Made by a program: the position numbers and the translations under genes
The notes under the pieces: generated by a model
What the model was told of the DNA's origin: nothing
Seen by the model: only the letters and a program-made list of their open reading frames with translations
Databases searched by the model: none
Virus record (IMG/VR): IMGVR_UViG_3300044591_000458
Span: 1 to 32,105 of that record
Length of the DNA stretch: 32,105 bases
Strand: one strand, 5' to 3'
From: a virus
Shown here: positions 3,659-22,599 of the stretch, one piece after another
Numbering within the stretch: the stretch's first letter is position 1
Layout: every line of letters begins with the position of its first letter

Positions 3659-4140
3659 TGGCTAATTTTATACACCCAACCGCCATAATTGGCGACAACG
3701 TTGAATTAGGCGACAACAATTACATTGGCGCTTATTGTATCATTGGCGACCCCGCTGAACATAAAAAATATTGGGGTCAACCGAAAGGCAAAGTTATAAT
3801 TGGTAACGGCAATATGATAACAGGTTTAGTTACTATTGACGCGGGAACTGAAGACCCAACGATTATTGAAAATGGTTGTTTCATAATGAAACACGCGCAC
3901 ATTGGTCACGATTGCCATATTATGAATGACGTAACGATTAGCTGCGGCGCAAAAATTGGGGGACATTCTGTTGTTGGCGAAAAATCAAATATTGGATTGA
4001 ATGCAGTTTTACACCAATTCAGCATAATCAAAAAAGGTTGTATGATTGGTGCAAGCGCTTTTTTCAAAGGGGTATCAGAACAGGAAATGAAATATGCCGG
4101 CGTGCCTGCGCGCAAGCTTGGTTCAAATATAAGAAAATGA
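3658..4140 (+). CDS. LpxA-like left-handed beta-helix acyltransferase
   Basis: 160 residues made of hexapeptide repeats (IHPTAIIGDNVELGDNNYIG, then VIIGNGNMITG, HIGHDCHIMNDVTISCGAKI). This is the left-handed beta-helix fold of LpxA, LpxD and sugar acetyltransferases. The HAHIGHDCHI stretch (about residues 81-90) is like the LpxA active-site region, where a histidine is the catalytic base. LpxA itself is about 260 residues; this copy lacks the helical C-terminal domain, so it is shorter than the cellular enzyme. It is the first gene of a cassette with two glycosyltransferases, so it probably acylates a sugar or sugar nucleotide. The target (host surface glycan, virion protein or DNA) is unknown. 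Confidence 0.75.
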   Translation: MANFIHPTAIIGDNVELGDNNYIGAYCIIGDPAEHKKYWGQPKGKVIIGNGNMITGLVTIDAGTEDPTIIENGCFIMKHAHIGHDCHIMNDVTISCGAKIGGHSVVGEKSNIGLNAVLHQFSIIKKGCMIGASAFFKGVSEQEMKYAGVPARKLGSNIRK

Positions 4141-4814
4141 ATATAGCCGTAATTTTACTAACCCTAAACAGAAACGACTTAACCAAACGCGTTATTGACC
4201 AAAATTTTAAAAATTCAGGTTATAACGCCGAATGCTTTTTAGTTGACAACGGAAGCGACCAAGTCCCGTATGAAATGTACAATTGGACAAACTGCAATGT
4301 ATCTTCTAAACTAAGGGGAATTGCAGCCGGTGTAAATGCCGGATTAAAAATGACCAAAGCATACGACGGCGTTTGTATTTTAGCAAATGATATTTTGCTT
4401 CCTGAAAATTGGCTTTTAAAGTGGGTTAATTATGCAAACCTAATACCAAAGACGGGCATTATTGGGATTCATTGCGTTGAAAATTTGCCGCCATTAACAG
4501 ACGGAGTGCATAAAGTACATACGCCATTTGGCGACAATTATCTTACAAGGGAATTAATTGATACCATTGGCGGTTACAATGAAGAATATGACCCTTATGG
4601 AATGCAAGACCAAGACTTCGCTGAACGCGCAAATATTGCAGGATTTACAAATTATTATATTCCCGACCTACGTTCTGAACATATTGGACACGACGTTGGC
4701 AATGGCACAGAATACCGCAGAATGAAGGACGAAAGTTTAGCACGTGCGCAATCCATTTGGGAAAAATACCAACCAATTTACCATACAGAAAAAAAGATTA
4801 AATGCGCATTTTAG
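4137..4814 (+). CDS. Glycosyltransferase, GT-A fold (family 2-like)
   Basis: 225 residues from ATG 4137, which overlaps the stop of the acyltransferase in ATGA. An upstream in-frame start at 4038 would lie inside that gene and is rejected. Features of GT2 enzymes are visible: VILLTLNRND at the N-terminus, VDNGSD at 36-41 (nucleotide-binding D37 and D41), VNAGLK near 66-71, ILAND at 81-85 as the DxD position, and YGMQDQDFAERA around 154-165 with the likely catalytic acid, then HIGHD at 182-186. The enzyme would transfer a sugar from a nucleotide sugar. It overlaps the next glycosyltransferase by 13 nt. Confidence 0.8.
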   Translation: MNIAVILLTLNRNDLTKRVIDQNFKNSGYNAECFLVDNGSDQVPYEMYNWTNCNVSSKLRGIAAGVNAGLKMTKAYDGVCILANDILLPENWLLKWVNYANLIPKTGIIGIHCVENLPPLTDGVHKVHTPFGDNYLTRELIDTIGGYNEEYDPYGMQDQDFAERANIAGFTNYYIPDLRSEHIGHDVGNGTEYRRMKDESLARAQSIWEKYQPIYHTEKKIKCAF

Positions 4815-5809
4815 CAATTACAAGTAAAACAAGCGGCGTCGGTTACCATAGAATCATTATGCCAATAGTCAATATGCAAAAAGACTATTGTTTAATGACT
4901 GACACATTAAGCGAAGAAACATTTGAAGGGAATTATGATATTGTGGTTATGAATCGTATGTTGGCAAATGTAACGCCCGAACAAATGGACGGCTTCCGTA
5001 AAAAATACGGGTTCAAATTAATTGTTGATAACGACGACTTTTGGCACTTAGACCCTTCGCATTTATTATATGAACGATATATTTTAAATAACATACCGAA
5101 ACAAATTATTGATTGGATTCGTATTGCTGACCTTTGCACCGTTACGCACGAACGATTAGCAGAAGAAGTTAAACTGTACAATTCAAATGTTGAAATTGTG
5201 CCAAATGCCATTCCATACGGCGAAGAACAATTTAAAGATTTTAAAAAGGATTCAGACATTGTTCGTTTGTTTTGGTCAGGTTCAGGCACACACGGTAAGG
5301 ATATGGAAATTTTACGCAATCCAATGAAGCGTATTAATTTTCCGGTACGAACTGTAATTGCAGGATATAACGAAGGCGAAAAACCAATTTGGGACGGAAT
5401 GATTGCAGCATTTACTAACGGGTTAAAATTAAACCCGACGATTTACAATTATAACGAAGTCACTTCATATATGGCGGCATACGCGGATTCAGATATTTCA
5501 TTAATTCCTTTGGTAGATTCCAAGTTTAATTCAATGAAGTCAAATTTAAAGGTATTAGAAACCGCAGCAAAGAAGAACCCCGCAATAGTTAGCAACGTAC
5601 ACCCGTACAGGGGTTTTTATCCTGCCTGTCACGTAAACAGTCAAAAAGATTGGTATTATTGGATTAAGTTATTAGTAAATGACCCTGACGCCCGAAAACA
5701 CTACGGCAACGCTTTGTACGAATACTGCAACAAGAATTTCAATTTACACGAAGTAAACAAACACCGATTCGCTATTTATAGTAAACTAATAGGAAATGCC
5801 GGTAATTAA
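4802..5809 (+). CDS. Glycosyltransferase, GT-B fold (family 4-like)
   Basis: 335 residues, normal for a GT-B enzyme. The N-terminal Rossmann half begins RILAITSKTSGVGYHRI. The hinge carries VEIVPNAIPYG (about 130-140), and the C-terminal nucleotide-sugar-binding half has LFWSGSGTHGKD and KSNLKVLETAA (about 247-257), the place of the E-x7-E region. This fits family 4 transferases that retain anomeric configuration. Together with the acyltransferase and GT-A gene it forms a translationally coupled glycan cassette. It overlaps the next gene by 14 nt. Confidence 0.75.
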   Translation: MRILAITSKTSGVGYHRIIMPIVNMQKDYCLMTDTLSEETFEGNYDIVVMNRMLANVTPEQMDGFRKKYGFKLIVDNDDFWHLDPSHLLYERYILNNIPKQIIDWIRIADLCTVTHERLAEEVKLYNSNVEIVPNAIPYGEEQFKDFKKDSDIVRLFWSGSGTHGKDMEILRNPMKRINFPVRTVIAGYNEGEKPIWDGMIAAFTNGLKLNPTIYNYNEVTSYMAAYADSDISLIPLVDSKFNSMKSNLKVLETAAKKNPAIVSNVHPYRGFYPACHVNSQKDWYYWIKLLVNDPDARKHYGNALYEYCNKNFNLHEVNKHRFAIYSKLIGNAGN

Positions 5810-6983: not shown

Positions 6984-8135
6984 ATGCGCATTGAACTGCC
7001 AACCCCACATATTAACCAAAGACAAATATTAGAATCGTCAAAACGATTTATTGTCGTTATGTGCGGACGTCGTTTCGGTAAGTCTGAATTGTCACAAATA
7101 CTTGGAATTACAGAAGCTTTAAAAGGCGGTTCTGTTGCATACGTTACACCGACTTACGGATTGGCGCAAGTATTCTTTGAACGCCTGACAAAGACGCTGC
7201 CATTCAAAAACAATATTTCAAAGCTAAAAATATACTGTCCCAACGAAGGGTCAATTGAATTTTTCACAGGGGAACGATTAGACAATTTACGCGGACGCAA
7301 ATTCCATTTGGTTATTATTGACGAAGCGGCTTTTATTTCAGACTTAGAAGACGGTTGGAATAATAGCATTCGCCCAACGCTGACAGATTATGAAGGACGT
7401 GCGGTTTTCCTTTCAACCCCACGCGGGAAGAACTTTTTTTATTCCCTGTTTATGAAGCAGGGCGAAAACGATTGGCAAAGCTTCAAATTTAGCACATACG
7501 ACAACCCGCATATAAACCCCCGCGAAATTGACGAAGCACGAATTCAGTTGCCGGAAGTTGTATTTAATCAGGAATATTTAGCAGACCCCGCAGAGAATAG
7601 CGCCAACCCTTTTGGGAACGCATTTATCAAACGTTGCATAAAACCTATTTCAGCGCATCAAATTGTTTCATACGGGATTGACCTTGCGAAGTCTGTTGAC
7701 TTTACGGTTATCATTGGCTTGGATAATGCCGGCAACGTGGCTTATTTTGACCGCTTCCAATTGGATTGGCATAATACCAAAGAAACAATAAAAAGATTGC
7801 CGCCTGCGCCTATAATCGTGGATTCAACGGGTGTTGGCGACCCGATATTGGAAGACTTGCTTCGTGAGGGCGTAAATATTGAAGGTTTGAAGTTTACAAG
7901 TCAGTCAAAACAACAATTAATGGAAGGTTTAGCGTCAGCCATTCAACAGGGCAAAATTGGATTCCCTGAAGGGGTTATTGTGGACGAATTAGACGTGTTT
8001 GAATATCAGTTCACGGCAAATGGCGTTAGGTATTCAGCGCCTTCCGGATTCCACGACGACTGCGTTATGGCATTGGCTTTGGCTTGGCAAAACCACAATA
8101 TAAAGCGCGGTTCAGGGCGTTATGCCTTCGCATAA
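6984..8135 (+). CDS. terL: Terminase large subunit
   Basis: 383 residues. The N-terminal ATPase has Walker A GRRFGKS (28-34), Walker B LVIIDEAAF (D113, E114) and a coupling motif STPRGKNF (144-151). The C-terminal RNase H-like nuclease has SYGIDLAKSVDFT (D233), PIIVDSTGVGDP (D280) and FHDDCVMALALA (D358, D359). All catalytic elements are present. The protein is a little shorter than the 420-500 residues usual for TerL. It pumps DNA into the prohead and cuts it. The stop codon abuts the first ACCGTT operator-like site at 8135. Confidence 0.95.
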   Translation: MRIELPTPHINQRQILESSKRFIVVMCGRRFGKSELSQILGITEALKGGSVAYVTPTYGLAQVFFERLTKTLPFKNNISKLKIYCPNEGSIEFFTGERLDNLRGRKFHLVIIDEAAFISDLEDGWNNSIRPTLTDYEGRAVFLSTPRGKNFFYSLFMKQGENDWQSFKFSTYDNPHINPREIDEARIQLPEVVFNQEYLADPAENSANPFGNAFIKRCIKPISAHQIVSYGIDLAKSVDFTVIIGLDNAGNVAYFDRFQLDWHNTKETIKRLPPAPIIVDSTGVGDPILEDLLREGVNIEGLKFTSQSKQQLMEGLASAIQQGKIGFPEGVIVDELDVFEYQFTANGVRYSAPSGFHDDCVMALALAWQNHNIKRGSGRYAFA

Positions 8136-8225
8136 CCGTTTATCCTTATTATTTACCGTTCATCACATTTTTAGAAAAAACATTAAAAAAGATTTGGTTG
8201 GTAATGTGTAGAAGGTGTATATTTG
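8135..8225 (+). promoter_or_regulatory. Control region A: tandem ACCGTTYATC sites and TATATTTG promoter
   Basis: ACCGTTTATC at 8135-8144 and ACCGTTCATCAC at 8155-8166 start exactly 20 bp apart. The promoter has TTTG at 8193-8196, a 21-nt spacer and TATATTTG at 8218-8225 (perfect TAnnTTTG). The spacer holds TGTGTAGAA (8205-8213), one base from an inverted DnaA box. The same arrangement recurs at 29532-29601. It probably drives the gene at 8247 and those after it. Confidence 0.75.
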
Positions 8226-8246
8226 TGTTAACAAAAGCAAATAACA

Positions 8247-8480
8247 ATGACAACTTTAACAACACAAATGACAATCGGTTTTAAATTCCAAGTAAACGGA
8301 AAAAACTTTACAAAGTTAGTATGTAACAGAAACAGATTCGTTGACGTTACTTTGGTTAACGATTTATACAACGTGAAAGCTTATACTTTGAAAGGAATTA
8401 ACGAAACAAAAGTTTCTGAATTAAACGGTATCTTTATTGAAGATTTACAAAAAGCAATCGTAACAACTTATAACGCATAA
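8247..8480 (+). CDS. Hypothetical small protein, first gene after promoter A
   Basis: 77 residues, beta-rich (FKFQVNGKNFTKLVCNRNRFVDVTLVNDLYNVKAYTL), with no motif I recognise. It starts 22 nt after the TATATTTG element. Being the first gene of a unit with a strong promoter suggests high expression soon after that promoter fires. Its counterpart after the second copy of the promoter (29644) is not similar in sequence. Confidence 0.7.
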   Translation: MTTLTTQMTIGFKFQVNGKNFTKLVCNRNRFVDVTLVNDLYNVKAYTLKGINETKVSELNGIFIEDLQKAIVTTYNA

Positions 8481-8489
8481 TATCCCCCG

Positions 8490-8514
8490 CAGGGGTGCGA
8501 CTGCTAAACGCACA
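8490..8514 (+). promoter_or_regulatory. Conserved hairpin element CAGGGGTGCGACTG...CGCACA, copy 1
   Basis: CAGGGGTGCGACTG is followed by a variable CTA and AACGCACA. GTGCG (8495-8499) pairs with CGCAC (8509-8513) around a 9-nt loop. A run of C at 8484-8488 could also pair with the GGGG. The element matches the copy at 29840-29864 at all but three loop positions. It lies 18 nt before the next start codon and may control translation or RNA stability. Confidence 0.6.
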
Positions 8515-8531
8515 TTTTAAAACCTTAACTT

Positions 8532-8684
8532 ATGGCAAACAAATTAAAAACACCACAGGAAAAACATTTAGAATTATTAGCAGAACGTCAAAAGCAATAC
8601 GCAAAAGAATCATTGGGTATGGGTTGGTTCTTCGCTATTATTACGGCGGCTTTATTGTTAACCGCTTTAATTGAAAACTTATAA
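8532..8684 (+). CDS. Small single-pass membrane protein
   Basis: 50 residues: a charged helical N-terminus (LKTPQEKHLELLAERQKQYAKE) then a membrane segment at about 31-47 (GWFFAIITAALLLTALI). The codon use matches its neighbours and it is followed by another start two bases after its stop. The function is unknown. Confidence 0.65.
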   Translation: MANKLKTPQEKHLELLAERQKQYAKESLGMGWFFAIITAALLLTALIENL

Positions 8685-8686
8685 TT

Positions 8687-8854
8687 ATGCCTTATTCAAC
8701 TTGCTGCGGTGCGCATACCAATTTTCCTGAAATTGACCTTTGCCCTGACTGCTTAGAACATTGCGATTGGGAAGAAGAAGACGAAGAAGAATTGGAAGCT
8801 GACCAAGAAACAGAAAACCAAATTGACCAAGCTAAAATTGATTCAAATGCCTAA
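8687..8854 (+). CDS. Small zinc-ribbon protein with acidic tail
   Basis: 55 residues. C6/C7 and the CPDC pair (C19/C22) plus C26 form a likely zinc knuckle, followed by a strongly acidic run (EEEDEEELEADQE). Proteins of this CCGA...CPDCxEHC type occur in many Bacteroidetes phages without an assigned role. It overlaps the next gene by 8 nt. Confidence 0.65.
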   Translation: MPYSTCCGAHTNFPEIDLCPDCLEHCDWEEEDEEELEADQETENQIDQAKIDSNA

Positions 8855-9002
8855 TTACTACGAACTTAAACAGACAACGTTAATGGAATTGGAAATTGCG
8901 GAATTAATCGCAAAGATTCAACGCCTTGAAAAAGAATTAGCTTTAAAAGAACAGGAAATAAAACAATTAAAAATGCTTACCTTAGCGTTAGCAGACCAAT
9001 AA
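8847..9002 (+). CDS. Small coiled-coil protein
   Basis: 51 residues, almost entirely one amphipathic helix (LMELEIAELIAKIQRLEKEL ... EQEIKQLKMLTLALADQ) with heptad spacing of Leu and Ile. ATG 8847 overlaps the zinc-ribbon stop. It is probably a dimer; the role is unknown. Confidence 0.6.
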   Translation: MPNYYELKQTTLMELEIAELIAKIQRLEKELALKEQEIKQLKMLTLALADQ

Positions 9003-9090
9003 TATTGTCCCCGTCCAAATTCAACAATCATTTTTAAACAGGGGTGTTTAGGTTATGTAACGGGCGGGGATATTTTAAAAGCTTATAACA
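9003..9090 (+). promoter_or_regulatory. Structured leader before wHTH gene
   Basis: A long-range stem is possible between TCCCCGTCC (9008-9016) and GGGCGGGGA (9062-9070), with one G-U pair. Inside it, TAAACA (9035-9040) pairs perfectly with TGTTTA (9045-9050) around a GGGG tetraloop. An alternative pairing ATTGT (9004-9008) / ACAAT (9024-9028) would compete with the outer stem. The loop includes CAGGGGTG, also found in the elements at 8490 and 29840. Leader control of the next gene is inferred. Confidence 0.45.
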
Positions 9091-9450
9091 ATGATAACAA
9101 ACTTTGAATTCCTGACAAGGGAAATGACCGACGAAGAAAAAAAATTAGTGCCTATCCTAATAAAAGGATTTAACACTAAAACAAAAGATAACCCAATTAA
9201 AGCGCCTGAAATAGTACAGGCAATCAATGCTAAACGCGAAAGCTTAGGTTTGAAATCTAATTTTTCAGAAGTTAGATTGCGTAAAATTGTTAACTTTATA
9301 CGTGCAGAAGGTATTTTGCCATTAATAGCAACTTCAAACGGTTATTATTGCAGCAAAGACAAAGAAGAAATTAAAAGTCAAATTGAAAGTTTAACACAAC
9401 GCGCAGACGCAATTATGTCAAGTGCTAACGGACTTAATAAATTTTTATAA
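9091..9450 (+). CDS. Winged-helix-like DNA-binding protein
   Basis: 119 residues. Residues about 15-90 (EEKKLVPILIKGF ... IKAPEIVQAIN ... FSEVRLRKIVNFIRAEGILPLIATSNGYYC) read as a winged helix: a helix, a recognition helix, then a beta wing ending in GYY. The C-terminal helix (EIKSQIESLTQRADAIMSSANGLNKFL) is typical of phage wHTH proteins of this kind. It may be a regulator of the late operon. It sits after the structured leader. Confidence 0.6.
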   Translation: MITNFEFLTREMTDEEKKLVPILIKGFNTKTKDNPIKAPEIVQAINAKRESLGLKSNFSEVRLRKIVNFIRAEGILPLIATSNGYYCSKDKEEIKSQIESLTQRADAIMSSANGLNKFL

Positions 9451-9451
9451 T

Positions 9452-9610
9452 ATGAAAGAACTGAACGAACTTCGCGAATGGGTTTGGTCACAATGTTTGA
9501 CAGGTCAACCTTTTTCCTGTGCAGACGTTATAAATAAGATTGACGAAATGTTGGAATCTGACACAGATATTGAAGAACTTTTATTAACTTCGTTTTATGA
9601 AATGGAATAA
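9452..9610 (+). CDS. Hypothetical small acidic protein
   Basis: 52 residues from ATG 9452; a GTG at 9422 is in frame but lies inside the previous gene. It is acidic and helical (ELNELREWVWSQC ... DTDIEELLLTSFYEME). It overlaps the tail chaperone gene by 14 nt, so it belongs to that operon. The function is not known. Confidence 0.55.
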   Translation: MKELNELREWVWSQCLTGQPFSCADVINKIDEMLESDTDIEELLLTSFYEME

Positions 9611-10271
9611 TTTAACCCTTTGGCAGTACCAACAAATAATGCCAATAATTACCAACCCTGAAAAAGATTGGACAGAATTAGACAAAGAAGTTAAGCTATT
9701 ATGTATCGTCACAGGTTTAACAGAATATCAGATTGACAGTTTAGCAATTGAAGACTTAAAAGAACTGCGCAAAGAATTAGCTTTTTTAGACGAACCAATT
9801 GAAGGTAAGCCGGTTGACTTTATTGTTATAAATGGCAGGCGTTATCGTATGAATTACGACATTAAAAATATGCCTGCGGCGCGTTACATTGAAAGCAAAG
9901 TATTCAGCAAAGATACATTGGCAAACCTGCACAAAATAGCTGCGTCAATGGTTATTCCGCAAAAGAAGACTTGGTTTGGCAAATGGGTTGACGACAAATA
10001 CGACGCAAGTAAGCACGAAGAATATTCGCAGGATATGCAAGAAGCGAATTTCATTCACATTTATCATTCGTTGGTTTTTTTTTATCAAATTTACAGAAAT
10101 TGGATAGAAATTTCAATGGATTATACGATTCAGGAAATGACGAAGGCGGGAGTGACACAACAACAAGCGGAACAGGTGGTTCAGCTTTTATCAGAATCTA
10201 CGGGTGGCATTATACCGCCAAACTTGTTGCCGAACACGAAAATATTAGAACTTCGGAAGCTTTTGAAATGA
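9597..10271 (+). CDS. Tail assembly chaperone, zero-frame product (gpG-like)
   Basis: 224 residues, helical. It plays the part of lambda gpG, coating the tape measure before tube assembly. This is inferred from its place upstream of the tail genes and from the frameshift signal. Codons for residues 160-163 (V F F Y) run over nine T, which make the slippery heptamer T TTT TTT at 10076-10082. The normal product continues 62 residues past the slip to TGA 10269-10271. These extra residues (NWIEISMDYTIQEMTKAGVTQQQAEQVVQLLSE...) are helical and well coded, so both frames appear to be used. Confidence 0.75.
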   Translation: MKWNNLTLWQYQQIMPIITNPEKDWTELDKEVKLLCIVTGLTEYQIDSLAIEDLKELRKELAFLDEPIEGKPVDFIVINGRRYRMNYDIKNMPAARYIESKVFSKDTLANLHKIAASMVIPQKKTWFGKWVDDKYDASKHEEYSQDMQEANFIHIYHSLVFFYQIYRNWIEISMDYTIQEMTKAGVTQQQAEQVVQLLSESTGGIIPPNLLPNTKILELRKLLK

Positions 10272-10357
10272 AGACTATTGAATTTCTGAACATAATGGCA
10301 TATATGAAAGCCAAGAATTCACACGACCGCGAAGAAGCAAAAAGATTAAGAATGTAG
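9597..10357 (+). CDS. Tail assembly chaperone, -1 frameshift product (gpGT-like)
   Basis: After slipping at 10076-10082 the ribosome would read TTA TCA AAT from 10082 and stay open to TAG 10355-10357, giving about 253 residues. The -1 extension has an acidic Gly/Ser/Thr linker (NDEGGSDTTTSGTGG), then YGWHYTAKLVAEHENI and TIEFLNIMAYMKAKNSHDREE. This resembles the second (T-like) part of chaperones in Bacteroidetes phages. The -1 frame has no credible independent start, only a TTG at 10100. The T part is expected to recruit tail tube subunits. The stop is followed 33 nt later by a terminator. Confidence 0.7.
10076..10082 (+). promoter_or_regulatory. Slippery heptamer T TTT TTT for -1 frameshift
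   Basis: Nine T span 10075-10083; in the zero frame they are read gTT TTT TTT TaT. X XXY YYZ is satisfied as T TTT TTT followed by T and A. I did not find an obvious strong stem in the 10 nt after it. Confidence 0.7.
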
Positions 10358-10390
10358 TTGGTTTTTATTGTTATAAGCAAAAGAAGAAGA

Positions 10391-10413
10391 CCCCGTTTTT
10401 TAGCGGGGTTTTT
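10391..10413 (+). terminator. Intrinsic terminator after the tail chaperone genes
   Basis: CCCCG (10391-10395) pairs with CGGGG (10404-10408) around an 8-nt T-rich loop and is followed by five T. It separates the chaperone operon from the tail operon. The 96 bp from 10358 to 10453 hold this and no gene. Confidence 0.85.
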
Positions 10414-10453
10414 CTATTGGCGGTATTTAGGTTTATTTTGGCTATTTATTGGT

Positions 10454-11176
10454 ATGAGTGAAGCAAAAGCACAGGCAGTCTTTTTAAGGGAAAAATATTT
10501 AAAAGAAATTGGGGATTATTACAACTTAATTGACCCGACTGAATATCCTATTGCTGAACAAATGTTAATGTATTACGGGAAGGTTTTTAATGATACGGTT
10601 CAGGCTAACTTAGACAAAAGCGGTTCAATTGCTTCGGGTAAAATTGGGGATTTGGTTGTACCAAGAATTAACAAGTTCGGGAATAATTACGAAATGGAGT
10701 TAGGATATGACCCCAAAAACCCTGCTTCGGTTTATTATAGGTTCGTAAACAAAGGGGTTCGTGGCGCAGGTGGGGAAAATGCAAGACCAAAAAAAGTATC
10801 TTCAGATTCGCCTTATAAATACAAAACACCGTTCCCAAATGAAAAAATGGCTAAGTCAATTTTGGAATGGTACAAATTAGGCAAAGTAAAAGCGCGCACG
10901 GATTCACAAAAAAAGAATCTAAGCGCAACGCAGACAAAGAATAGAAGATTAAAACAGGTTACAAGTAAGCCGTTGACATTAATGCAGGTTGCATACAGAA
11001 CGGCGGCGGCAATTAAAAGGGACGGTTTAAAAACAACAAAGTTTTTTGATAATGCAATTAAAACTGTATTTAACAAAGAATTTTTTGAAGTTATGGCTTC
11101 GGCTTTTGGTGGGGACGTTCAATTACAAATTAGACAAATTGGAAATAAAATAGAAAATGGCAATAACAGTAAATAG
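10454..11176 (+). CDS. Virion protein, HK97 gp10-like candidate
   Basis: 240 residues from ATG 10454; the open frame reaches back to 10358, but that would read through the terminator. The protein is basic in its C-terminal half (RTDSQKKNLSATQTKNRRLKQ) and ends with an RDGLKTTKFFDNAI...FNKEFF segment, a pattern seen in the neck or tail-completion proteins of Bacteroidetes phages. It is probably structural. It overlaps the next gene by 20 nt in another frame. Confidence 0.5.
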   Translation: MSEAKAQAVFLREKYLKEIGDYYNLIDPTEYPIAEQMLMYYGKVFNDTVQANLDKSGSIASGKIGDLVVPRINKFGNNYEMELGYDPKNPASVYYRFVNKGVRGAGGENARPKKVSSDSPYKYKTPFPNEKMAKSILEWYKLGKVKARTDSQKKNLSATQTKNRRLKQVTSKPLTLMQVAYRTAAAIKRDGLKTTKFFDNAIKTVFNKEFFEVMASAFGGDVQLQIRQIGNKIENGNNSK

Positions 11177-12371
11177 TGTACCGGCTACATATCCAAGTAT
11201 GCACGACGACCTTTGGTTTGTGGCTTCTTCAACAAATGTTGGGGTAACAAACTTTAAATTCGTTTACGACGTTTATATTAACGGCGCACAGGTAAGCAGA
11301 AACAAAGTATTCCCTGCGCCAAGTGCAGAAGGAAGTTACGGTGTATTTAACGCGTCGCCAATGGTGCGCGCATACGTTACAAACTATTTTGAACCGTCCG
11401 GAAATACGGTTTTAATGGCTTCTAACGACAAAATAAAGGTTGATTATCAAGTACGTATTGGCGAAGAAGTAAGCGGCGCAGTTACGCCTAATTTGGCTTC
11501 AGGTTCTTATTCTGCGTATAACTATTACGCGCCATTGTTCGGGGATATATTCACAGAAAACGGCGAAGTACCTTTGGTATTGTCTAATTACTACGACAAC
11601 TTATTAATTGAGAATTACACGGACGATTGGTTAAGCGACCGCGACAATTCAGATATTACCATTGAATACGGCGACCAATTCTTTATTACATTTTTAAAGA
11701 TTACAGGCGGTTCATATAAACTTTGGGTTCAACCAACAAACGAAGACGGAACTTTTGGAACTGCGGTAAGCGGTGCTTTGACAATGTCAGGACAATTTAA
11801 TTTATTTAATTTTCAGGCGGCGGCAATTAACGAATGGGCAGGTTCTGAAATAATAACACAAAATACTTACGGTTACAATGTTTATATTTCGCTTGGCGCA
11901 GCAACCACAAGGGTATTACGATTCAGGCAGGTATGTAACCCTAAGTACAGACAGTATAACCTTCACTTTCTCAACAGACTTGGCGGGTACGATACAATGG
12001 CTTTCAGATTGGTCAACAAACGAAGAAGTGAATTTCAACGTTCTTCATACAGACGCAACCCTTATCAATTATCAAATGGTCAAATGACCAATATTGACGC
12101 ATACAACAAATACAACGAAACGACGTATAACTTCGCTATTCAACACACGGACTATTATATGTTAACTTCAGATTGGGTTAATGACCAAGATTACGCTTGG
12201 TTGGCACAATTAGTAGCTTCGCCTATTGTTTATATGGAAGTTCAAGGTGCGTTTTTCCCTGTGACAATTAGAAACACGAATTATCAATATAAATATAAAG
12301 TATCGGACAAGCTATTTAATTTTGACTTAGAAGTTGAAGTTGGAAAATATTTAAACAGTCAGTACAGATAA
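11157..12371 (+). CDS. Tail/baseplate structural protein
   Basis: 404 residues, rich in beta strands, with no signal peptide. The most distinctive stretch is VCNPKYRQYNLHFLNRLGGY near residues 259-278, followed by MAFRLVNKRR, a pattern I associate with large tail-tip proteins of Bacteroidetes phages. It sits between the chaperones and the next tail protein and shares its stop with the start of that gene (TAATG). Whether it is a distal tail ring or an adhesin support is not resolvable here. Confidence 0.55.
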   Translation: MAITVNSVPATYPSMHDDLWFVASSTNVGVTNFKFVYDVYINGAQVSRNKVFPAPSAEGSYGVFNASPMVRAYVTNYFEPSGNTVLMASNDKIKVDYQVRIGEEVSGAVTPNLASGSYSAYNYYAPLFGDIFTENGEVPLVLSNYYDNLLIENYTDDWLSDRDNSDITIEYGDQFFITFLKITGGSYKLWVQPTNEDGTFGTAVSGALTMSGQFNLFNFQAAAINEWAGSEIITQNTYGYNVYISLGAATTRVLRFRQVCNPKYRQYNLHFLNRLGGYDTMAFRLVNKRRSEFQRSSYRRNPYQLSNGQMTNIDAYNKYNETTYNFAIQHTDYYMLTSDWVNDQDYAWLAQLVASPIVYMEVQGAFFPVTIRNTNYQYKYKVSDKLFNFDLEVEVGKYLNSQYR

Positions 12372-14431
12372 TGATTAGAACCGAAATATACATTGAAAAC
12401 GAATTGATTGATTTGTTAAAAGACATTGGAACGGATTTCACGTACACGATTGACGACGTGCGTGACTTCGGTTCAAGAAATACGTCTTTTAGCCGTACAA
12501 TATCCATTCCTGCAACTGCCCGAAATAATAAAATTTTGGGTTTTGCTTTTGACTTAGGTATGGCGCACGAACATAATATGGATTTGCCAAACGTTGCTTC
12601 AAACTTTACACCGTCACAGGCGGCGAAGTGCGAAGTATATATTGACAAAGTACAGATATTTAAGGGCGTTATTAGAATACTTGAAATCATAACTAACAAC
12701 GGTTCAACAGAATATCAATGCGCCGTATTTGGCGAATTAGGCGGCTTTATTACGGAGTTAGGGAATAAGCGTTTGGAAGACTTAGATTTTAGCGAATATA
12801 ACCACACTTGGAATGTAACAACAATACAAAACAGTTGGAATACAATAAACGGTTCAGGTTATTATTATCCATTGATTGATTACGGCGACGTTTCAACAGG
12901 TAAAGACGATTTCCACGTTTCAACGTTTCGCCCTGCATTATATGCAAAAGAATACATTGAAAAAATATTTGAAGGGACGACTTATACTTTGAATTGCGAC
13001 TTTTTCAATACAGACTTTTTTAAGAAACTTATTATCCCAAACAACAGTCAGGGAATACAAGGTACGAATGACCAATTTATACTTGCAACTATTGCAGCAA
13101 CTAAAACAATTTTAAACAGTAATACACCAACTGCACGAAATATAAATGTACCTTTTGATAATACGACTTTACTTAATTTTACGGAAAATGGAACTAAAAG
13201 CATATTTACTTATACTGACGGTACAAAGACTGTGCGCGCGTTGGCTTCCATAACCGGAGTTTATCAAACGGACGCTGCTTCTTCTATTACTGCGACTTTA
13301 TACGTTGCAGGTGTTGCCGTTCAGACTTTGACACAAAACACATTTTCAGCAAATAACCCTTATACATTTAGTTTTGATTGGACAGGTAATATTGCAAACA
13401 CTAACACAGTTTACATAAATATTAGCGTCCCCGTAACTGCCAATACTTATATTGTGACAGTGTCAAGTGCTAACTTTACTTTTACGCAGTTAGCCGCGCA
13501 ATTGGATTCTGTTGCGTATAATGGTACTGTTTCAATGAATAATAATTTGCCAAAGGGTATTTTCCAAAAAGACTTCTTTTTGTCAGTTTGTAAAATGTTC
13601 AATCTTTACGTTTATCAGGATAACATAAACGAAAAACAAATTAACATTGCACCTTTTATTGACTTCTATTCTGATGCCGTGACGAATTCTTTGGATTGGT
13701 CGCAGAAAATAGATATTGCTTCAACAATGTCAATTAAACCAATGTCACAGTTGAACGCGCGTTATTATGCCTATAAATACACGCCTGATTCAGATTACTA
13801 TAACGACAACTATTTGAAAAAGTACGGTCAATCATACGGCGACTTTATTTATGATTCTGAATTTGACTTCGTAAAAGATACGGCTTCAACACAAATTATT
13901 TTTGCACCTTCAGTATTGAAGTTGCATACAGGACAGGACAAATACCATACTGACATATACAAATTGTCAAATAATAATACACAGGAAGACCCAATGGATA
14001 GCGTTATTCGCGTCTTAATGGCGAAGAAGTTTACAGGCGTTTCACAATGGAAGATTCAAGACGACGGCGGCGGAACATTGGTTCAATTAACGGCTTACGG
14101 TTATGCGGGACACTTAGACGACCCAACCAACCCAACGGTTGACTTGAATTTTGGCGCACCAAAGGAATTGCAATTCCCTGCGTCAACTTACCCAACAAAT
14201 AACTTATTTAACACATATCATAAACCGTACATTTTAGAAATTACGGATATGGAATCTAAGCTTTTGACCTGTCGCGTTTATTTGAATGCACTTGACATTT
14301 ACAATTTAGATTTCAGTAAATACATTTGGATAAATGGCGTATTGTTTAGATTGAATAAAGTTGAAGCATACGACCCGACGGCATATAACACAACACAGGT
14401 TAATTTATTAAAAGTAATAAACACGAATTAA
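12371..14431 (+). CDS. Large tail protein (baseplate hub or distal tail candidate)
   Basis: 686 residues. The N-terminus (MIRTEIYIENELIDLLKDIG then DVRDFGSRNTSFSRTISIP) is a beta domain typical of tail proteins in Bacteroidetes siphoviruses. The middle (residues about 260-370) is Thr/Ser-rich and looks like an inserted beta-sandwich. The C-terminal 200 residues return to a conserved style. It starts and ends with one-base overlaps with its neighbours, so it is part of a strictly coupled tail operon. Hub or distal-tail roles are inferred by size and place. Confidence 0.55.
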   Translation: MIRTEIYIENELIDLLKDIGTDFTYTIDDVRDFGSRNTSFSRTISIPATARNNKILGFAFDLGMAHEHNMDLPNVASNFTPSQAAKCEVYIDKVQIFKGVIRILEIITNNGSTEYQCAVFGELGGFITELGNKRLEDLDFSEYNHTWNVTTIQNSWNTINGSGYYYPLIDYGDVSTGKDDFHVSTFRPALYAKEYIEKIFEGTTYTLNCDFFNTDFFKKLIIPNNSQGIQGTNDQFILATIAATKTILNSNTPTARNINVPFDNTTLLNFTENGTKSIFTYTDGTKTVRALASITGVYQTDAASSITATLYVAGVAVQTLTQNTFSANNPYTFSFDWTGNIANTNTVYINISVPVTANTYIVTVSSANFTFTQLAAQLDSVAYNGTVSMNNNLPKGIFQKDFFLSVCKMFNLYVYQDNINEKQINIAPFIDFYSDAVTNSLDWSQKIDIASTMSIKPMSQLNARYYAYKYTPDSDYYNDNYLKKYGQSYGDFIYDSEFDFVKDTASTQIIFAPSVLKLHTGQDKYHTDIYKLSNNNTQEDPMDSVIRVLMAKKFTGVSQWKIQDDGGGTLVQLTAYGYAGHLDDPTNPTVDLNFGAPKELQFPASTYPTNNLFNTYHKPYILEITDMESKLLTCRVYLNALDIYNLDFSKYIWINGVLFRLNKVEAYDPTAYNTTQVNLLKVINTN

Positions 14432-16902
14432 TGGCAGACGAAATAATTGGTATAAAAGTAACCACAGACGCCGCGCAGGCAACGCAAGAAGTTCAGAAAT
14501 TAGATACTGCTTTTGAAGCTACTGACCAAACGGTTAAAGGTTTAAGAACGCAGTTAAAAGAAGCGGTTGCGAATGTTGCTTTAATGGCTGACAAATTTGG
14601 CGCGACTTCAAAGGAAGCTATTAATGCGGCTAAACGTGCGGCTGACTTAAAAGACCGTATCGGTGACGCAAAAGCATTGACAGACGCATTTAATCCTGAC
14701 GCAAAGTTTAAGGCGGTTGCTTCTTCATTGGCAGGTGTTGCAGGTGGATTTAGTGCGCTTCAAGGTGCAATGGCTTTGTTTGGAAGTGAAAATAAAGACG
14801 TTGAAAAAGCATTATTGAAAGTAAATGCTGCAATGGCTTTGTCACAAGGTTTGCAAGCGGTCGGCGAAAGTATTGATTCTTTTAGACAATTGGGTGCGGT
14901 TATTAAAAGCACAACGACATTCCAAGAATTAAATAATGCAGCAACTAAAACGGCTGCGGTTGTTCAGCGTGCGTTTGGTGTTGCAACTGTTGAAACAAGT
15001 ACGGGATTTAAAGTTTTAAAAGGTGCTATTGTTGCGACAGGTATTGGTGCGCTTGTTGTTGCATTAGGCGCGGTTATAAACAACTTTGATGCAATTTCAG
15101 ATTGGATTAAAAGCAGTCCATTAGGTAGTTTAGCCAAAGGGATAGCAGGATTGGTTGAACAATTTACTGACTTTATTGGTGTTACAAGTGAAGCAGAACG
15201 AAACCTAAACAAAATATCAGCTGCTAATAAAAGAGCAAATGAAGATATTGCTAATAGAATTAAAATATTAAAAGCGCAAGGCGGTTCAGAAAAAGAAGTT
15301 TACGATTTAAGTACACAACTTATTGAAAATCAACTTAATGATTTAAGAAATGCAGCAAAGGTAAAAGGTAAGTTAACTGAAGAAGAACAAAAACAAATGC
15401 GCGACTTAAAAACCGAGCAATTAGTTTTAACGGCTGACTATAATAAAAAAGTTTCAGAAGAAAATAAGAAAGCAGCTGACAAGGCGCAAAAAGATAGAGA
15501 TGACGCCAATAAAAAAGCTGCGGATAAAGCGCAAAAAGATAGAGATGATGCTGCTAAAAAAGCAGAAGAAGACACGAAGACTGCAAATAAAATGCTTCTT
15601 GATTTGCAGAATGCAAAGAGTTTGGCATTAATAGAAGATGAAAATGCTAAGGCTTTAAAGCAATTAGAAATAGATAAGAAAGCTAAAGAAGATGAAATTA
15701 ATCAATTAAAGGTTTCGCAATCTGTTAAAGATGAATTAATTAAAACAAATAATGAAAAATTTGTTGCGGATAAAAATAACCTTGACAAAAAGATTAAAGA
15801 AGATACAGATAAAAAACAAAAAGAAGACGCGGATAATCTTAATACGTTTAATGAAAAAATAAAAGAAATTAAAATTGCCGCAGTTGAAGATGACGTTGAA
15901 AGAGCAAAACAAGAAAGATTAGCTAAACTTGATAAAGATTTAAGAGAATTAGAAGAAGATAAAGAATTCATAAAATTATCTGAAACTGAAAAGACTGAAA
16001 TTAGAAATCAATTAAAGCAAACCGCTGAAGAAGATATTACTAAAATTGAACTTGAAGAAGAAAGTAAAAGATTAGATAAAAAATTAAGGTTATTAGAATT
16101 AAACCTTGAAGCATTAACTAAAGGCACTCAATCTTATTATGACGCTAAAATTGAATTAATAAATGAAGCTGAAAAGAAGGAAATTTTAGAACTTCAAAAG
16201 CAATTTGACCAAAAGAAAATAAATGAAGAAGAATTTCAAAAAGCTTTAGCAGCTATTCAGGCAAAATACGCAAAACAAGTAAAGCAAACTAAATTAGAAC
16301 AATTAAATGAATATTTAGGTTATGCAACAACTACTTTAAGTGCTATAAATAATATATTTTCTTCGGCAAGTAAGATAAACCAAATGCAACTTGAACAAGA
16401 CCTTAAAAAGGTTAAGGGCAATGCAGTTGAAGAAGAAAAACTTAGAAAAAAAGCATTTGAACAAAATAAGAAAACACAAATTGCGCAAGCTATTATTGGA
16501 ACTTTACAATCGGCGGTTCAGGCATTCCAATCACTTGCAGTTATTCCGATAGTTGGTCCGGTTTTGGGTGCGGCAGCAGCAGCGGCAGCATTGGTTTTTG
16601 GATATAAGCAAGTTGCTTTAATTAAAGCACAAAACTATGAATCAGCATCAGAAGGCACAGTTACTTCGCCAAGTTTAGGCGAAGGTGGCGGGGGTTCGCC
16701 TGACTTAGGTGGTGGCGGTGCTGGTGGCGCAGTTCCCGACTTAGGTGGTGGTGCTTCGCCCGATTTAGGCACAAGTGGTGGCGGTGTAGGCGCAGGCGGT
16801 GGTGGTCAAACCCCAACAGTTCGTGCATACGTTGTTGAACGTGACATTTCAGACGCACAAAGCCGTGACGCAGAAATTCAAAACCGCGCACGATTCCAAT
16901 AA
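14431..16902 (+). CDS. Tape measure protein
   Basis: 823 residues. The order is a helical start, a hydrophobic segment at about 193-216 (LKGAIVATGIGALVVALGAV), a long charged coiled coil at about 250-660, a second hydrophobic segment at about 700-730 (IPIVGPVLGAAAAAAALVFG), and a Gly-rich tail with four xPxLG repeats. This is the classic layout of a tape measure that sets tail length and helps eject DNA. At about 1.5 Angstrom per residue the tail would be near 120 nm. Residues 345-374 are an exact 15-residue duplication. The coiled-coil part uses more GAT and AAA codons than other genes. Confidence 0.9.
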   Translation: MADEIIGIKVTTDAAQATQEVQKLDTAFEATDQTVKGLRTQLKEAVANVALMADKFGATSKEAINAAKRAADLKDRIGDAKALTDAFNPDAKFKAVASSLAGVAGGFSALQGAMALFGSENKDVEKALLKVNAAMALSQGLQAVGESIDSFRQLGAVIKSTTTFQELNNAATKTAAVVQRAFGVATVETSTGFKVLKGAIVATGIGALVVALGAVINNFDAISDWIKSSPLGSLAKGIAGLVEQFTDFIGVTSEAERNLNKISAANKRANEDIANRIKILKAQGGSEKEVYDLSTQLIENQLNDLRNAAKVKGKLTEEEQKQMRDLKTEQLVLTADYNKKVSEENKKAADKAQKDRDDANKKAADKAQKDRDDAAKKAEEDTKTANKMLLDLQNAKSLALIEDENAKALKQLEIDKKAKEDEINQLKVSQSVKDELIKTNNEKFVADKNNLDKKIKEDTDKKQKEDADNLNTFNEKIKEIKIAAVEDDVERAKQERLAKLDKDLRELEEDKEFIKLSETEKTEIRNQLKQTAEEDITKIELEEESKRLDKKLRLLELNLEALTKGTQSYYDAKIELINEAEKKEILELQKQFDQKKINEEEFQKALAAIQAKYAKQVKQTKLEQLNEYLGYATTTLSAINNIFSSASKINQMQLEQDLKKVKGNAVEEEKLRKKAFEQNKKTQIAQAIIGTLQSAVQAFQSLAVIPIVGPVLGAAAAAAALVFGYKQVALIKAQNYESASEGTVTSPSLGEGGGGSPDLGGGGAGGAVPDLGGGASPDLGTSGGGVGAGGGGQTPTVRAYVVERDISDAQSRDAEIQNRARFQ
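15463..15552 (+). repeat. Tandem 45-bp repeat in the tape measure gene
   Basis: Two adjacent units encode the identical 15 residues NKKAADKAQKDRDDA. The DNA differs at several synonymous third positions (for example GCA/GCT, GCT/GCG, GAC/GAT, GCC/GCT), so the repeat is old or selected at protein level. A third, degraded unit (AKKAEED) follows. Confidence 0.85.
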
Positions 16903-16930
16903 ATGATAAATATTAAAAATTAAACTATTT

Positions 16931-17530
16931 ATGGGTATGAATACTGAATTACCAATATATATGTTGGACATAACAGAAGACATTGAAGACGATTCGCAAG
17001 TTGACTTCATTGCTTTGGTTGACCGTCCGGCTATCCAAAAGAATTGGAACGCATTTAATAAAACACAAAAATTTGAAATTGTTAACGAAGACCGTCGCAT
17101 TATTTCAGGCGCTATTATGTTGGCTGACACTCCTATTTTTCGTAGTGACAGTACTTACGGTGATTACTACGTGGCTTTTAGTGCGGACACTATTCTTAAA
17201 ATTGTACAAAAATTCTTCAAAAAAGGATTCCAAAGCAATGTGAATTTAATGCACGATTCAAATGCACAATTTGACGGCGTGACTTTATTTGAAAGCTTTA
17301 TTTCAGACCCTGCACGTGGCATTATGCCAATGAAAGGATTTGAAGACGCACCTGTTGGCAGTTGGTTTGGGTCAATGATTGTTGACAATAACGAAGCGTG
17401 GGCGAAAGTAAAAAGTGGCGACATTGCAGGATTTAGCGTTGAAGGTTTATTTAACTACAAACCAAAAGAAGTAAATAAAGTTGCTTCAATGGTTGACGAA
17501 ATCAAAAAAATATTGTCACAGGTTAAGTGA
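16931..17530 (+). CDS. Prohead protease, XkdF-like serine peptidase
   Basis: 199 residues. Motifs of the XkdF-like peptidase family (related to the S78 proheads) are visible: SGAIMLADTPIFR (about 59-71), NLMHDS with the likely catalytic H108, and DIAGFSVEG with the likely nucleophile S169. It is followed by the scaffold and the major capsid gene, the normal order for head maturation. It would cut the scaffold and perhaps the capsid protein N-terminus. Confidence 0.8.
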   Translation: MGMNTELPIYMLDITEDIEDDSQVDFIALVDRPAIQKNWNAFNKTQKFEIVNEDRRIISGAIMLADTPIFRSDSTYGDYYVAFSADTILKIVQKFFKKGFQSNVNLMHDSNAQFDGVTLFESFISDPARGIMPMKGFEDAPVGSWFGSMIVDNNEAWAKVKSGDIAGFSVEGLFNYKPKEVNKVASMVDEIKKILSQVK

Positions 17531-17567
17531 TAAACATTTTATTTTTTAACTATATAATAAAAAAAGT

Positions 17568-18179
17568 ATGAACGCACAGGAAGCGATTTTAAAAATCAAA
17601 GCGTTGTTTGAAGACAATGCTGCGCCTGTTGAAGAAGTGAAAGCTGAAGAAACACCGATTGTTGAAGAAACAAAGGTTGAAATGGCTGAATATTCTTTAA
17701 TGGACGGAACGAAAGTTGAAATTTCAGCTTTTGAAATTGGCGGTTCTGTTACTATGGCTGACGGTACACCTGCACCTGCGGGCGAACACCAATTAGCCGA
17801 CGGGACACAGATTCAGTTAGACGAAAACGGTATTATCATTGAAATTTCTGCAAAAGAAGAAGAAGTGATGCCGGAAGTTGACACAGAAATTGAAGCTAAA
17901 AAAGAAGAAGACAAAAAGATTGCAGAAATGCAAGAACAATTTGAAGCACAAATTGCTGAATTAAAAGCAGCAAAAGAAGTTTCAGACGCAAAAGTATTGG
18001 AATTAGAAAATAAAGTTAAGCAAGGCTTTGCACAAGTAGCTGAATTGATTGAAGCACTTTCAAACGTACCAAGCGCAGACCCAATTCAAAAGCCAAGCAA
18101 TTTTTCTGAATTTGTATCAAACAATGATATTAAAGAAGAAAGATTAAATAAATATAGACAAGCATTATTAAACAATTAA
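17568..18179 (+). CDS. Capsid scaffolding protein
   Basis: 203 residues, very acidic and low-complexity (EEVKAEETPIVEETKVEM), with a beta region MADGTPAPAGEHQLADGTQIQL and a coiled coil at about 105-160. The C-terminal part (NFSEFVSNNDIKEERLNKYRQALLN) probably docks on capsid subunits. Its position between the protease and the major capsid gene supports a scaffold role. The 37 bp before it hold only AT-rich sequence. Confidence 0.75.
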   Translation: MNAQEAILKIKALFEDNAAPVEEVKAEETPIVEETKVEMAEYSLMDGTKVEISAFEIGGSVTMADGTPAPAGEHQLADGTQIQLDENGIIIEISAKEEEVMPEVDTEIEAKKEEDKKIAEMQEQFEAQIAELKAAKEVSDAKVLELENKVKQGFAQVAELIEALSNVPSADPIQKPSNFSEFVSNNDIKEERLNKYRQALLNN

Positions 18180-18191
18180 AATTAGATAACA

Positions 18192-19145
18192 ATGGCATTT
18201 AATGTATCAGCATTAGCTAACTATACAGAACAAAACGCAGCCCTTTTGGTTACGTCTTCTGTATTAGGTGCAAAAACTGCTTCTTTAATTAAGAGTGCAG
18301 GAAACGTTATGGTAGGCGTTAAGTCTTCAGAAACGATTAACATTATGGACACAGACGCAATTTTTCAAAGCGGGGGTAGCTGCGGATTTACTGCATCAGG
18401 TTCAACAACTTTCACACAAAGAACTGTGACTGTTGGTAAAATTAAAGTAAACGAAGCACTTTGTCCAAAAGACTTAGAAGCTAAGTATTTACAAAAAGCT
18501 TTACCTACCGGTTCAATGTATGATTCAATTCCTTTTGAGCAAGAATTCGCAGACAAGAAAGCGAAAACTATTGCTGCTCAATTAGAAACAGGTTTATGGC
18601 AAGGCGACACAGATTCTGTGAACGTTAACTTAAACAAGTTTGACGGTTTAGTAAAATTAATCGGCGCTGCTTCAGGTGTTGTTGCTGCTAACGCTTCAAC
18701 TTACATTTCAGGCGCACCTTTGAGTTCAATTACTGCTGCTAACGTAATCAGCATTTTTGACGGTGTTTACGCTGCAATCCCTGCGAAAGTAGTTGCTGCT
18801 GAAGATATGACTATCTTCTGTGGTCAGGATTTATTCAGAACTTACACAATTGCTTTAAAGAACGCTAACAGCTTCCATTATTCAGTTGACGCTAAGGCTG
18901 ACGGCGAATTTGTTTTACCGGGTACAATGATTAAAGTTGTTGCGGTTGCAGGTTTGAACGGTACTAATAAAGTTTACGCTACACGTTTAAGCAACTTATT
19001 CATCGGTACAGACTTATTGAACGAAGAAGAAAAATTTGAAATCTTCTACGCAAAAGAAGCTGACCAAGTACGTTTCGTTTCTGAATTCAAAATGGGTGTG
19101 AATATTGCATTCCCTGACGAAGTTGTGAAATTCGTATTGGCTTAA
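18192..19145 (+). CDS. Major capsid protein (HK97-fold candidate)
   Basis: 317 residues. The sequence (FNVSALANYTEQNAALL, INIMDTDAIFQSGGSCGF, IKVNEALCPKDLEAKYL, FADKKAKTIAAQLETGLWQG) corresponds to the capsid proteins I know from Bacteroidetes siphoviruses. It follows the scaffold gene by 12 bp and is followed by a strong terminator, as expected for a very abundant protein. Codons are more biased toward GCT, GTT and TTC than those of the neighbours. Confidence 0.85.
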   Translation: MAFNVSALANYTEQNAALLVTSSVLGAKTASLIKSAGNVMVGVKSSETINIMDTDAIFQSGGSCGFTASGSTTFTQRTVTVGKIKVNEALCPKDLEAKYLQKALPTGSMYDSIPFEQEFADKKAKTIAAQLETGLWQGDTDSVNVNLNKFDGLVKLIGAASGVVAANASTYISGAPLSSITAANVISIFDGVYAAIPAKVVAAEDMTIFCGQDLFRTYTIALKNANSFHYSVDAKADGEFVLPGTMIKVVAVAGLNGTNKVYATRLSNLFIGTDLLNEEEKFEIFYAKEADQVRFVSEFKMGVNIAFPDEVVKFVLA

Positions 19146-19151
19146 TTATTC

Positions 19152-19179
19152 GGGGGTTGAAATATACCCCCACTTTTTT
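19152..19179 (+). terminator. Intrinsic terminator after the major capsid gene
   Basis: GGGGGT (19152-19157) pairs with ACCCCC (19166-19171) around an 8-nt loop, and six T follow two bases later (19174-19179). Confidence 0.85.
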
Positions 19180-19200
19180 AAAATATTAAATTAATTAACA

Positions 19201-19722
19201 ATGAGTTGTGCTTTAACACAAGGATACACTTTAGATTGTCGCGATAGTTTAGGCGGTATCGTTGAAGTTTATTTTACTGAAGCTGCAAACGTAACAACAA
19301 CAACTGAAGCAAGCGGTGTTATTACTGCTTTGACTAAGGCTGCGGGAAAACGTTTTTGGAAATATGCTTTAGTAAAAGATACTTCAATGTTCAACCAAAC
19401 ATTAAACGCTTCTGTTGCAAACGGGACTGTTTTTTACGCGCAAGAACTTCAGATTATCCTTAATAAAATGCAGACTAACACACGCAACGAATTGTTGTTG
19501 TTAGCGCAAAATTCTTTAGTTGCAGTTGCAAAAGATAGCAACGGAATCTATTGGTATTTAGGAAAAACACGCGGTATTGATATGACTGCAAATGCAGCTT
19601 CAACAGGTACTGCGCAAGGCGACAGAAGCGGATTCACTTTAACTTTCACAGGTTCTGAACCTGCGTTAGCTCCAAGTGTAACTTCAGTTGTTGCTTTAGC
19701 TTTAGAAACACCGGGTTCTTAA
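19201..19722 (+). CDS. Major tail tube protein candidate
   Basis: 173 residues, beta-rich, starting MSCALTQGYTLDCRDSLGG. The middle (WKYALVKDTSMFNQTLNASV, VFYAQELQIILNKM) and the end (SGFTLTFTGSEPALAP) fit a tail tube fold: two sheets and a central helix. Its high-expression style codons and placement in a separate unit flanked by terminators on both sides fit an abundant tube protein. Confidence 0.65.
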   Translation: MSCALTQGYTLDCRDSLGGIVEVYFTEAANVTTTTEASGVITALTKAAGKRFWKYALVKDTSMFNQTLNASVANGTVFYAQELQIILNKMQTNTRNELLLLAQNSLVAVAKDSNGIYWYLGKTRGIDMTANAASTGTAQGDRSGFTLTFTGSEPALAPSVTSVVALALETPGS

Positions 19723-19753
19723 TAACTTTGTTTTTCATAGGTTTATAGGTTTG

Positions 19754-19786
19754 CCGCCGTTCCTTAATTGGTTCGGCGGTTTTTTT
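19754..19786 (+). terminator. Intrinsic terminator after the tail tube gene
   Basis: CCGCCG (19754-19759) pairs with CGGCGG (19774-19779); an inner CC/GG extends the stem around TTAATT. Seven T follow (19780-19786). Confidence 0.9.
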
Positions 19787-19814
19787 GTTTAATATGCAAC
19801 AAATTGTACTTTTA
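19784..19814 (+). promoter_or_regulatory. Candidate promoter for the portal operon
   Basis: TTTG (19784-19787), formed by the end of the terminator T run, lies 19 nt before TACTTTTA (19807-19814), which matches TAnnTTTG at seven of eight positions. Transcription would start just before ATG 19828, leaving almost no leader. Confidence 0.45.
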
Positions 19815-19827
19815 GCTATTTACTTAT

Positions 19828-21998: not shown

Positions 21999-21999
21999 A

Positions 22000-22596: not shown

Positions 22597-22599
22597 AAT

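Follow-up and report, generated by a model that had tools for sequence, protein, structure and literature searches.

The window (the whole stretch of DNA analysed, 32,105 bases of an IMG/VR virus record) contains a gene on the plus strand whose last third is open in two reading frames. The zero frame runs from an ATG at 9597 to a TGA at 10269-10271 and encodes 224 amino acids. At the codons GTT TTT TTT TAT CAA (10074-10088) it passes through an in-frame slippery heptamer, T TTT TTT (10076-10082), which lies within a run of nine Ts (T9) at 10075-10083. This run is the longest A/T homopolymer in the window, and no other A/T run in the 32,105 bases reaches nine. Starting at 10082, the -1 frame reads through 91 codons before a TAG at 10355-10357, giving an extension at 10082-10357, stop included. 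Past the slip, the zero frame codes 62 further codons (10083-10271 with its stop), and the 186 nt at 10083-10268 are read in both frames. Residues 1-162, encoded at 9597-10082, are common to both predicted products. A sequence-only reading of this DNA had described a perfect heptamer, 91 open codons in the -1 frame and a 62-codon zero-frame tail past the slip, and the locus bears out all three.

The gene lies between a terminase gene (6984-8135) and a tape-measure-like open reading frame (ORF) at 14431-16902 (phrog_2854, E = 5e-8), which is downstream of it with three genes intervening. From 6984 to 25146 the order is terminase, the chaperone-like gene considered here, the tape-measure-like gene, protease, head protein, portal and S74 fibre; in this stretch the tail genes precede the head genes. 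The portal-like ORF (20202-21998) has sub-threshold winged-helix matches (HTH_24 and MarR_2) at residues 430-478, and two consecutive glycosyltransferase-like ORFs lie upstream of the terminase at 4038-5809. About 35 nt past the -1 stop, a pattern scan of loci from near relatives gave a candidate terminator-like hairpin with a T tail (10390-10416, plus strand). A similar pattern occurs at 37 of the 83 near loci, compared with 40 of 2000 random segments; given this enrichment, the hairpin may set the level of the downstream genes. A minus-strand hairpin is also listed at the same place.

Conservation and selection in near relatives

We assembled a set of near relatives by scanning viral contigs with both products and with profiles (the best 80 of 291 and the best 80 of 308 relatives in the profile scans), adding one contig (L298) from a MAG titled Chitinophagaceae bacterium. 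Loci too short for the gene, 13 of which are listed, were excluded, leaving at least 84 distinct full-length sequences with the window counted in. Two contigs, IMGVR_UViG_3300043436_001856 (63,203 bases) and IMGVR_UViG_3300002835_000289 (49,966 bases), each carry two different copies of the gene, approximately 31-33 kb apart, and both look like two related phage genomes joined.

Among the matches listed, all 84 near sequences keep the 15-mer over the slip site, GTTTTTTTTTATCAA, and 83 of them have both stops at their standard places. The zero-frame stop is at +672 (81 sequences) or +678 (2 sequences), and the -1 stop is at +752, +755 or +758. In the remaining sequence, L061, the layout is broken by a deletion of 133 nt within the overlap. 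In all 83 near sequences examined, the +1 frame closes 6-15 codons past the slip. The silent sites of the T run show no changes where 11.1, 6.6 and 6.6 were expected, and position 10082, which is silent in both frames, is unchanged against 6.6 expected changes. Early -1 stops in homologues, which the sequence-only reading had named as evidence that would count against it, are absent: the frames are open in 83 of 84 near sequences and in all 54 of the more distant sequences (described below) whose zero-frame ORF closes within the contig.

An ORF finder places the start of the -1 frame at TTG 10100, and the record of the Nonlabens phage P12024S gives the -1 part as an ORF of its own, as would be the case if the -1 frame were a separate small gene begun within the overlap rather than part of a fusion. 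However, the -1 residues L1, S2, Q5 and K6, all upstream of this TTG, are invariant in 23 near sequences, the T run shows no change at its silent sites, and in the window the TTG is imposed by a zero-frame Trp codon (TGG). On the invariant residues and the unchanged silent sites we rejected a separate gene, which we regard as extremely improbable.

To check whether both frames are used, we measured substitution rates in 81 near sequences (L061, L133 and L134 were left out). Rates are parsimony changes per opportunity, classed by their effect in each frame, with ancestral states also reconstructed by parsimony. Changes that are silent in the zero frame and alter the -1 frame have a rate of 2.28 in the core and 0.67 in the overlap, a ratio of 0.30 (95% interval 0.20-0.40). 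Changes that are silent in the -1 frame and alter the zero frame have a rate of 2.28 in the -1-only part and 0.68 in the overlap, again a ratio of 0.30 (95% interval 0.20-0.42). Changes silent in both frames occur in the overlap at 2.43, against a neutral rate of 2.28. Because these doubly silent changes proceed at the neutral rate, the drop is not an effect of mutation or RNA, and RNA-level constraint is ruled out as the source of the low silent variation. The ratio of 0.30 in both directions, together with the neutral rate of doubly silent changes, therefore indicates protein-level selection on both frames. Judged by these substitutions, two frames are kept by protein-level selection over approximately 190 bases. 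The synonymous-site check proposed in the sequence-only reading thus agrees with its claim of two used frames in the overlap, with silent variation down to 0.30 in each.

We also simulated evolution under selection on a single frame, with the acceptance of amino-acid changes fixed at 0.13. With selection on the -1 frame alone, a mean of 75.3 of the 81 leaves acquired a zero-frame stop; with selection on the zero frame alone, a mean of 62.2 of 81 had a -1 stop. In neither direction did any of 60 simulations leave the other frame open in all leaves. An overlap by chance is ruled out by the 15-mers (84 of 84), the stop pairs (83 of 84) and the simulations (0 of 60). An independent clade of eight sequences gave ratios of 0.18 (zero-silent) and 0.28 (-1-silent). 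In clade g482_678 (18 sequences) the zero-silent ratio was 0.21, and the constraint on the zero frame was not significant (0.73, 95% interval 0.42-1.46).

The constraint can be compared along the overlap with structure models of the two products. The zero product, as modelled well by AlphaFold2 (mean pLDDT 82.2, pTM 0.73), has a core of helices and a small sheet, a long helix at 152-183 that spans the slip, and helices at 188-201 and 213-223, with a low-confidence stretch at 203-211 in the tail. The -1 extension (mean pLDDT 71.6) is modelled as a short helix, a disordered linker at 16-31 and helices at 34-53, 57-61 and 65-90; its helical domain carries the motif YGWHYT...AYMKAK. The zero frame is below the neutral rate of 2.28 in all five bins of the overlap (0.31-0.97). 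For the -1 frame, constraint is weakest in the two bins opposite its predicted disordered linker (1.16 and 1.01) and strongest in the final pair (0.34 and 0.29), a pattern that agrees with the models.

These measurements also bear on the possibility that the zero-frame tail is a passive leftover, open by chance or through codon bias, with the -1 tail alone mattering. Two observations are in keeping with such a leftover: the length of the tail varies from 22 to 72 amino acids among relatives (25 in P12024S, 22 in the loci L467 and L468), and the model of the window product loses confidence at 203-211. Nevertheless, substitutions that change only the zero frame occur at 0.30 of the rate in the -1-only part and below neutral in five of five bins, and no leaf has a zero-frame stop where the simulation expects 75.3 of 81. 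We consider a passive tail very improbable.

The T run in distant relatives and the proposed frame switch

A profile search of genomes of the same family matched 3 of 394, including the prophage-like loci L369 and L370, both of which have T9 and both frames open. A viral scan from L369 returned the best 80 of 219 relatives, 70 of them distinct, and 60 of these 70 have a core identity to the window below 65% (46.9-60.6%). In the 60 far sequences listed, the run is T9 in 43 and T10 in 17. The zero-frame ORF closes within the contig in 54 of the 60; in these the zero-frame tail has 54-68 codons and the -1 extension 81-90. Three more searches of genomes (2 of 298, 2 of 395 and 4 of 204) added three prophage-like loci of 50-56% GC (L460, L463 and L465). 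Their zero-frame tails are 63, 63 and 72 codons long, and their -1 extensions (87, 82 and 85 codons) share the YGW motif; a fourth locus, L466, carries the gene of L465, with T9.

Taken together, the remote relatives mostly have zero-frame tails of 47-72 codons, with two lineages that have short tails (22 and 25) and one lineage without the run. L467 and L468 (31% GC) have T9 and a zero-frame tail of just 22 codons. L469 has T9 and starts as its near-twin L468 does, but its -1 frame closes after 69 codons; its layout, like that of L061, suggests an assembly fault or a damaged phage. The lineage without a T run, L464 (a contig in G1012), has a matching core (hhalign E = 3.9e-6) in a single frame, an ORF of 311 codons that ends in a stretch with weak similarity to the -1 domain (hhalign E = 0.073). 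From its sequence, L464 is a possible in-frame fusion, and A0A6J7WJY4, a viral protein matched by both fold models, is perhaps one too.

Every lineage that possesses a run has T9 or T10, and behind the run of at least nine Ts lies a conserved alternative frame. What is conserved across lineages is therefore a run of at least nine Ts, more than the heptamer alone, and RNA polymerase may be what switches the frame: slipping on T9, the polymerase would add one U (or drop two), and normal translation would then yield the same two proteins. Several features of the run fit such slippage. The codons around it differ among lineages (V-FF-Y, V-FF-L, V-FF-C, N-FFF-A, L-FF-Y, A/G-FF-L and N-FF-L), and the extra Ts sit 5' of the heptamer, 3' of it or on both sides of it, depending on the lineage. 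In the three prophage loci of 50-56% GC, T9 is the sole homopolymer of at least 7, and it is kept even though TTC outnumbers TTT there by approximately 4-5:1. The unchanged position 10082 is a further point of this kind. By a rough calculation that treats bases as independent, a heptamer would gain two flanking Ts by chance with a probability of approximately 0.09-0.22 per lineage.

A stimulatory RNA fold, which would aid a ribosomal slip, was looked for and not found: of eight segments folded, the seven that start right after the run gave z-scores of -1.13 to 1.24, with no convincing stimulatory structure, and a search of Rfam found no match. Nine is also the length at which selection against slippage shows in many bacterial genomes, according to PMC1088944. 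The slippage groups named there comprise IS elements and dnaX, and tail genes are not among them. Like Thermus dnaX and the IS elements, the present gene has nine identical A/T bases with a conserved frame behind them; those genes are expressed by transcriptional slippage, which for the present gene is a proposed mechanism. Among open-licence PMC papers, we found none that deals with this group of genes or with tail chaperones expressed by slippage.

On the other side, an in-phase T TTT TTT is present in any T9, so that the ribosome could slip there too, and the sequence by itself does not decide between ribosome and polymerase. Hydrophobic residues flanking the run, in either frame, may also lengthen it, and known tail-chaperone pairs are described as ribosomal in PMC5009743. 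We regard polymerase slippage as quite possible, if short of probable. The fuller proposal, in which slippage serves a tail-chaperone pair with overlapping selected C-terminal domains (approximately 190 bases) throughout a group of Bacteroidota phages and prophages that would be both old and widespread, is one we would put forward only tentatively.

Protein families, known systems and a proposed tail-assembly role

Foldseek with the zero product found 32 viral proteins at E <= 1e-3, and every one for which a name was available is uncharacterised; a match in Flavobacterium phage 6H has E = 3.8e-3. Another match, I6R9M9 (E = 3.3e-7), we take to be gp38 of P12024S from its phage and its length of 175 amino acids. 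Comparison of folds with the PDB (VIA-align, on Foldseek's own candidates) gave no Z of 5 or more, a result that still leaves room for a known fold, and comparison of sequences with the PDB gave no match up to E = 1. We also ran tblastn against 50,697 phage records with both window products and with the zero products of L369 and L388, and none had a match at E <= 1. The sequence-only reading had assigned the -1 extension a typical GT-like domain. This assignment was not confirmed: the extension from the window has no Pfam or PHROG match, and together with its relatives it matches, weakly, families of unknown function and no others. Pfam PF10109 (Phage_TAC_7, which includes P2 E and Mu 41) scores 14.7 bits in the window, below the curated cut-off of 25 bits, with weak matches in 14 of 37 relatives at E <= 0.1 (best E = 0.0023). 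A weak match to phrog_166 (tail protein) was also found. No sequence kinship was detectable with lambda G, HK97 gp13, Mu gp41 or P2 gpE (by hhalign for P2 gpE and Mu gp41).

The hallmark of tail chaperones is a gene upstream of a tape-measure-like one in which a -1 switch leads from a common product to a rarer one. In a G/GT-type pair, the gene sits immediately before the tape measure gene and after the tail tube gene, and the products are made in a set ratio and are absent from virions. The searches of the window found no tail tube gene. Here we find the in-frame slippery heptamer followed by a long conserved -1 frame; in place of an early zero-frame stop there are 62 codons, which makes the gene a variant of the G/GT pair rather than a strict member. 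With no kinship detected to known chaperones and Phage_TAC_7 below its cut-off, the likeness to G/GT lies in how the gene would work and does not extend to demonstrated family membership. From the layout and the weak matches, we infer a tail-chaperone role.

A dual-product gene could also have a job other than tail assembly, for example as a morphogenetic scaffold or adaptor. Such a job would fit the lack of a sequence link to known chaperones and the position of the gene, which is not directly before the tape measure gene: it is behind the terminase region in the window, directly behind the annotated terminase in P12024S, and in L460 and L370 it follows terminase-like ORFs (judged by eye). 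We nevertheless think a different job unlikely, with the -1 switch upstream of a tape-measure-like gene being the hallmark of tail chaperones and the weak Phage_TAC_7 and phrog_166 matches pointing the same way.

Lambda gpG/gpGT resembles the present pair in its common N-terminal core, its in-frame X XXY YYZ site and its late gene region, and its -1 extension of 144 codons is of the same order as the 91 here. The slip sites differ (GGGAAAG in lambda, T TTT TTT here), there is no sequence similarity, and the lambda zero frame closes 5 codons past the slip as opposed to 62. P2 gpE and gpE+E' share with our gene a -1 shift on a T run, described as T6G in PMC3931495, and of the weak matches that the relatives give, Phage_TAC_7 is the commonest. 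However, the annotated P2 shift (at 19685) is approximately 6 codons ahead of the gpE stop, compared with 62 here, and hhalign detects no relationship between the proteins. The chaperones annotated by SEA-PHAGES have a programmed frame change and belong to the same functional class, but the frameshifted ones in the training set described in PMC10885494 have a mean distance from slip to stop of 26 nt, compared with 186 nt here. A dual-coded ending, with the zero frame continuing for 186 nt past the slip, is thus strongly supported as a difference from lambda and P2.

Another close system is gp38/gp39 of P12024S (JQ823122), which has a related core (hhalign E = 1.4e-6), T9, a homologous-looking -1 extension and a position right after the terminase. 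Its zero-frame tail has 25 codons, compared with 62 in the window. The record lists P12024S_38 and P12024S_39 as two separate hypothetical ORFs; from the sequence of JQ823122.1 at 23136-23830 (L452), the two look like one frameshifted gene that was split in the record.

We lean towards a G/GT-like tail-assembly chaperone pair with a ribosomal -1 slip and two alternative selected tails. In such a pair, a late gene of what is probably a Bacteroidota-type tailed phage would give two proteins with residues 1-162 in common; the relative in the MAG titled Chitinophagaceae is what suggests this host group. The majority of expression would end in the zero frame, giving the 224-aa form with its conserved helical tail of 62 residues. 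A minority, at whatever rate the switch may have, would slip back one base at T9 and give a form of approximately 253 aa with a flexible linker and a small helical domain. Lambda G/GT (PMC5009743), in which the core coats the tape measure and the -1 domain recruits tube subunits, serves as the model for their roles. In the present pair, the probable partner of the common core is the tape measure protein, and the probable task of the -1 domain, which the rarer form carries, is to bring in the tail tube protein.

Such an arrangement affects how these genes are found. A predictor that uses the distance from slip to stop as a feature, as in PMC10885494, would tend to mark them down, and at least one deposited genome, that of P12024S, shows both parts as unrelated ORFs. 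The locus is also a clean natural example of two protein domains encoded over approximately 186 common bases with an internal neutral control, and with its T run one can test directly whether ribosome or polymerase switches the frame. A textbook chaperone pair consists of a short form and a short-plus-extra form. Here both forms end in tails that are under selection; the common form is therefore not simply truncated, and the C-termini are alternatives rather than short and long versions. A role for the second, zero-frame tail would have to be built into models of how tail length is controlled.
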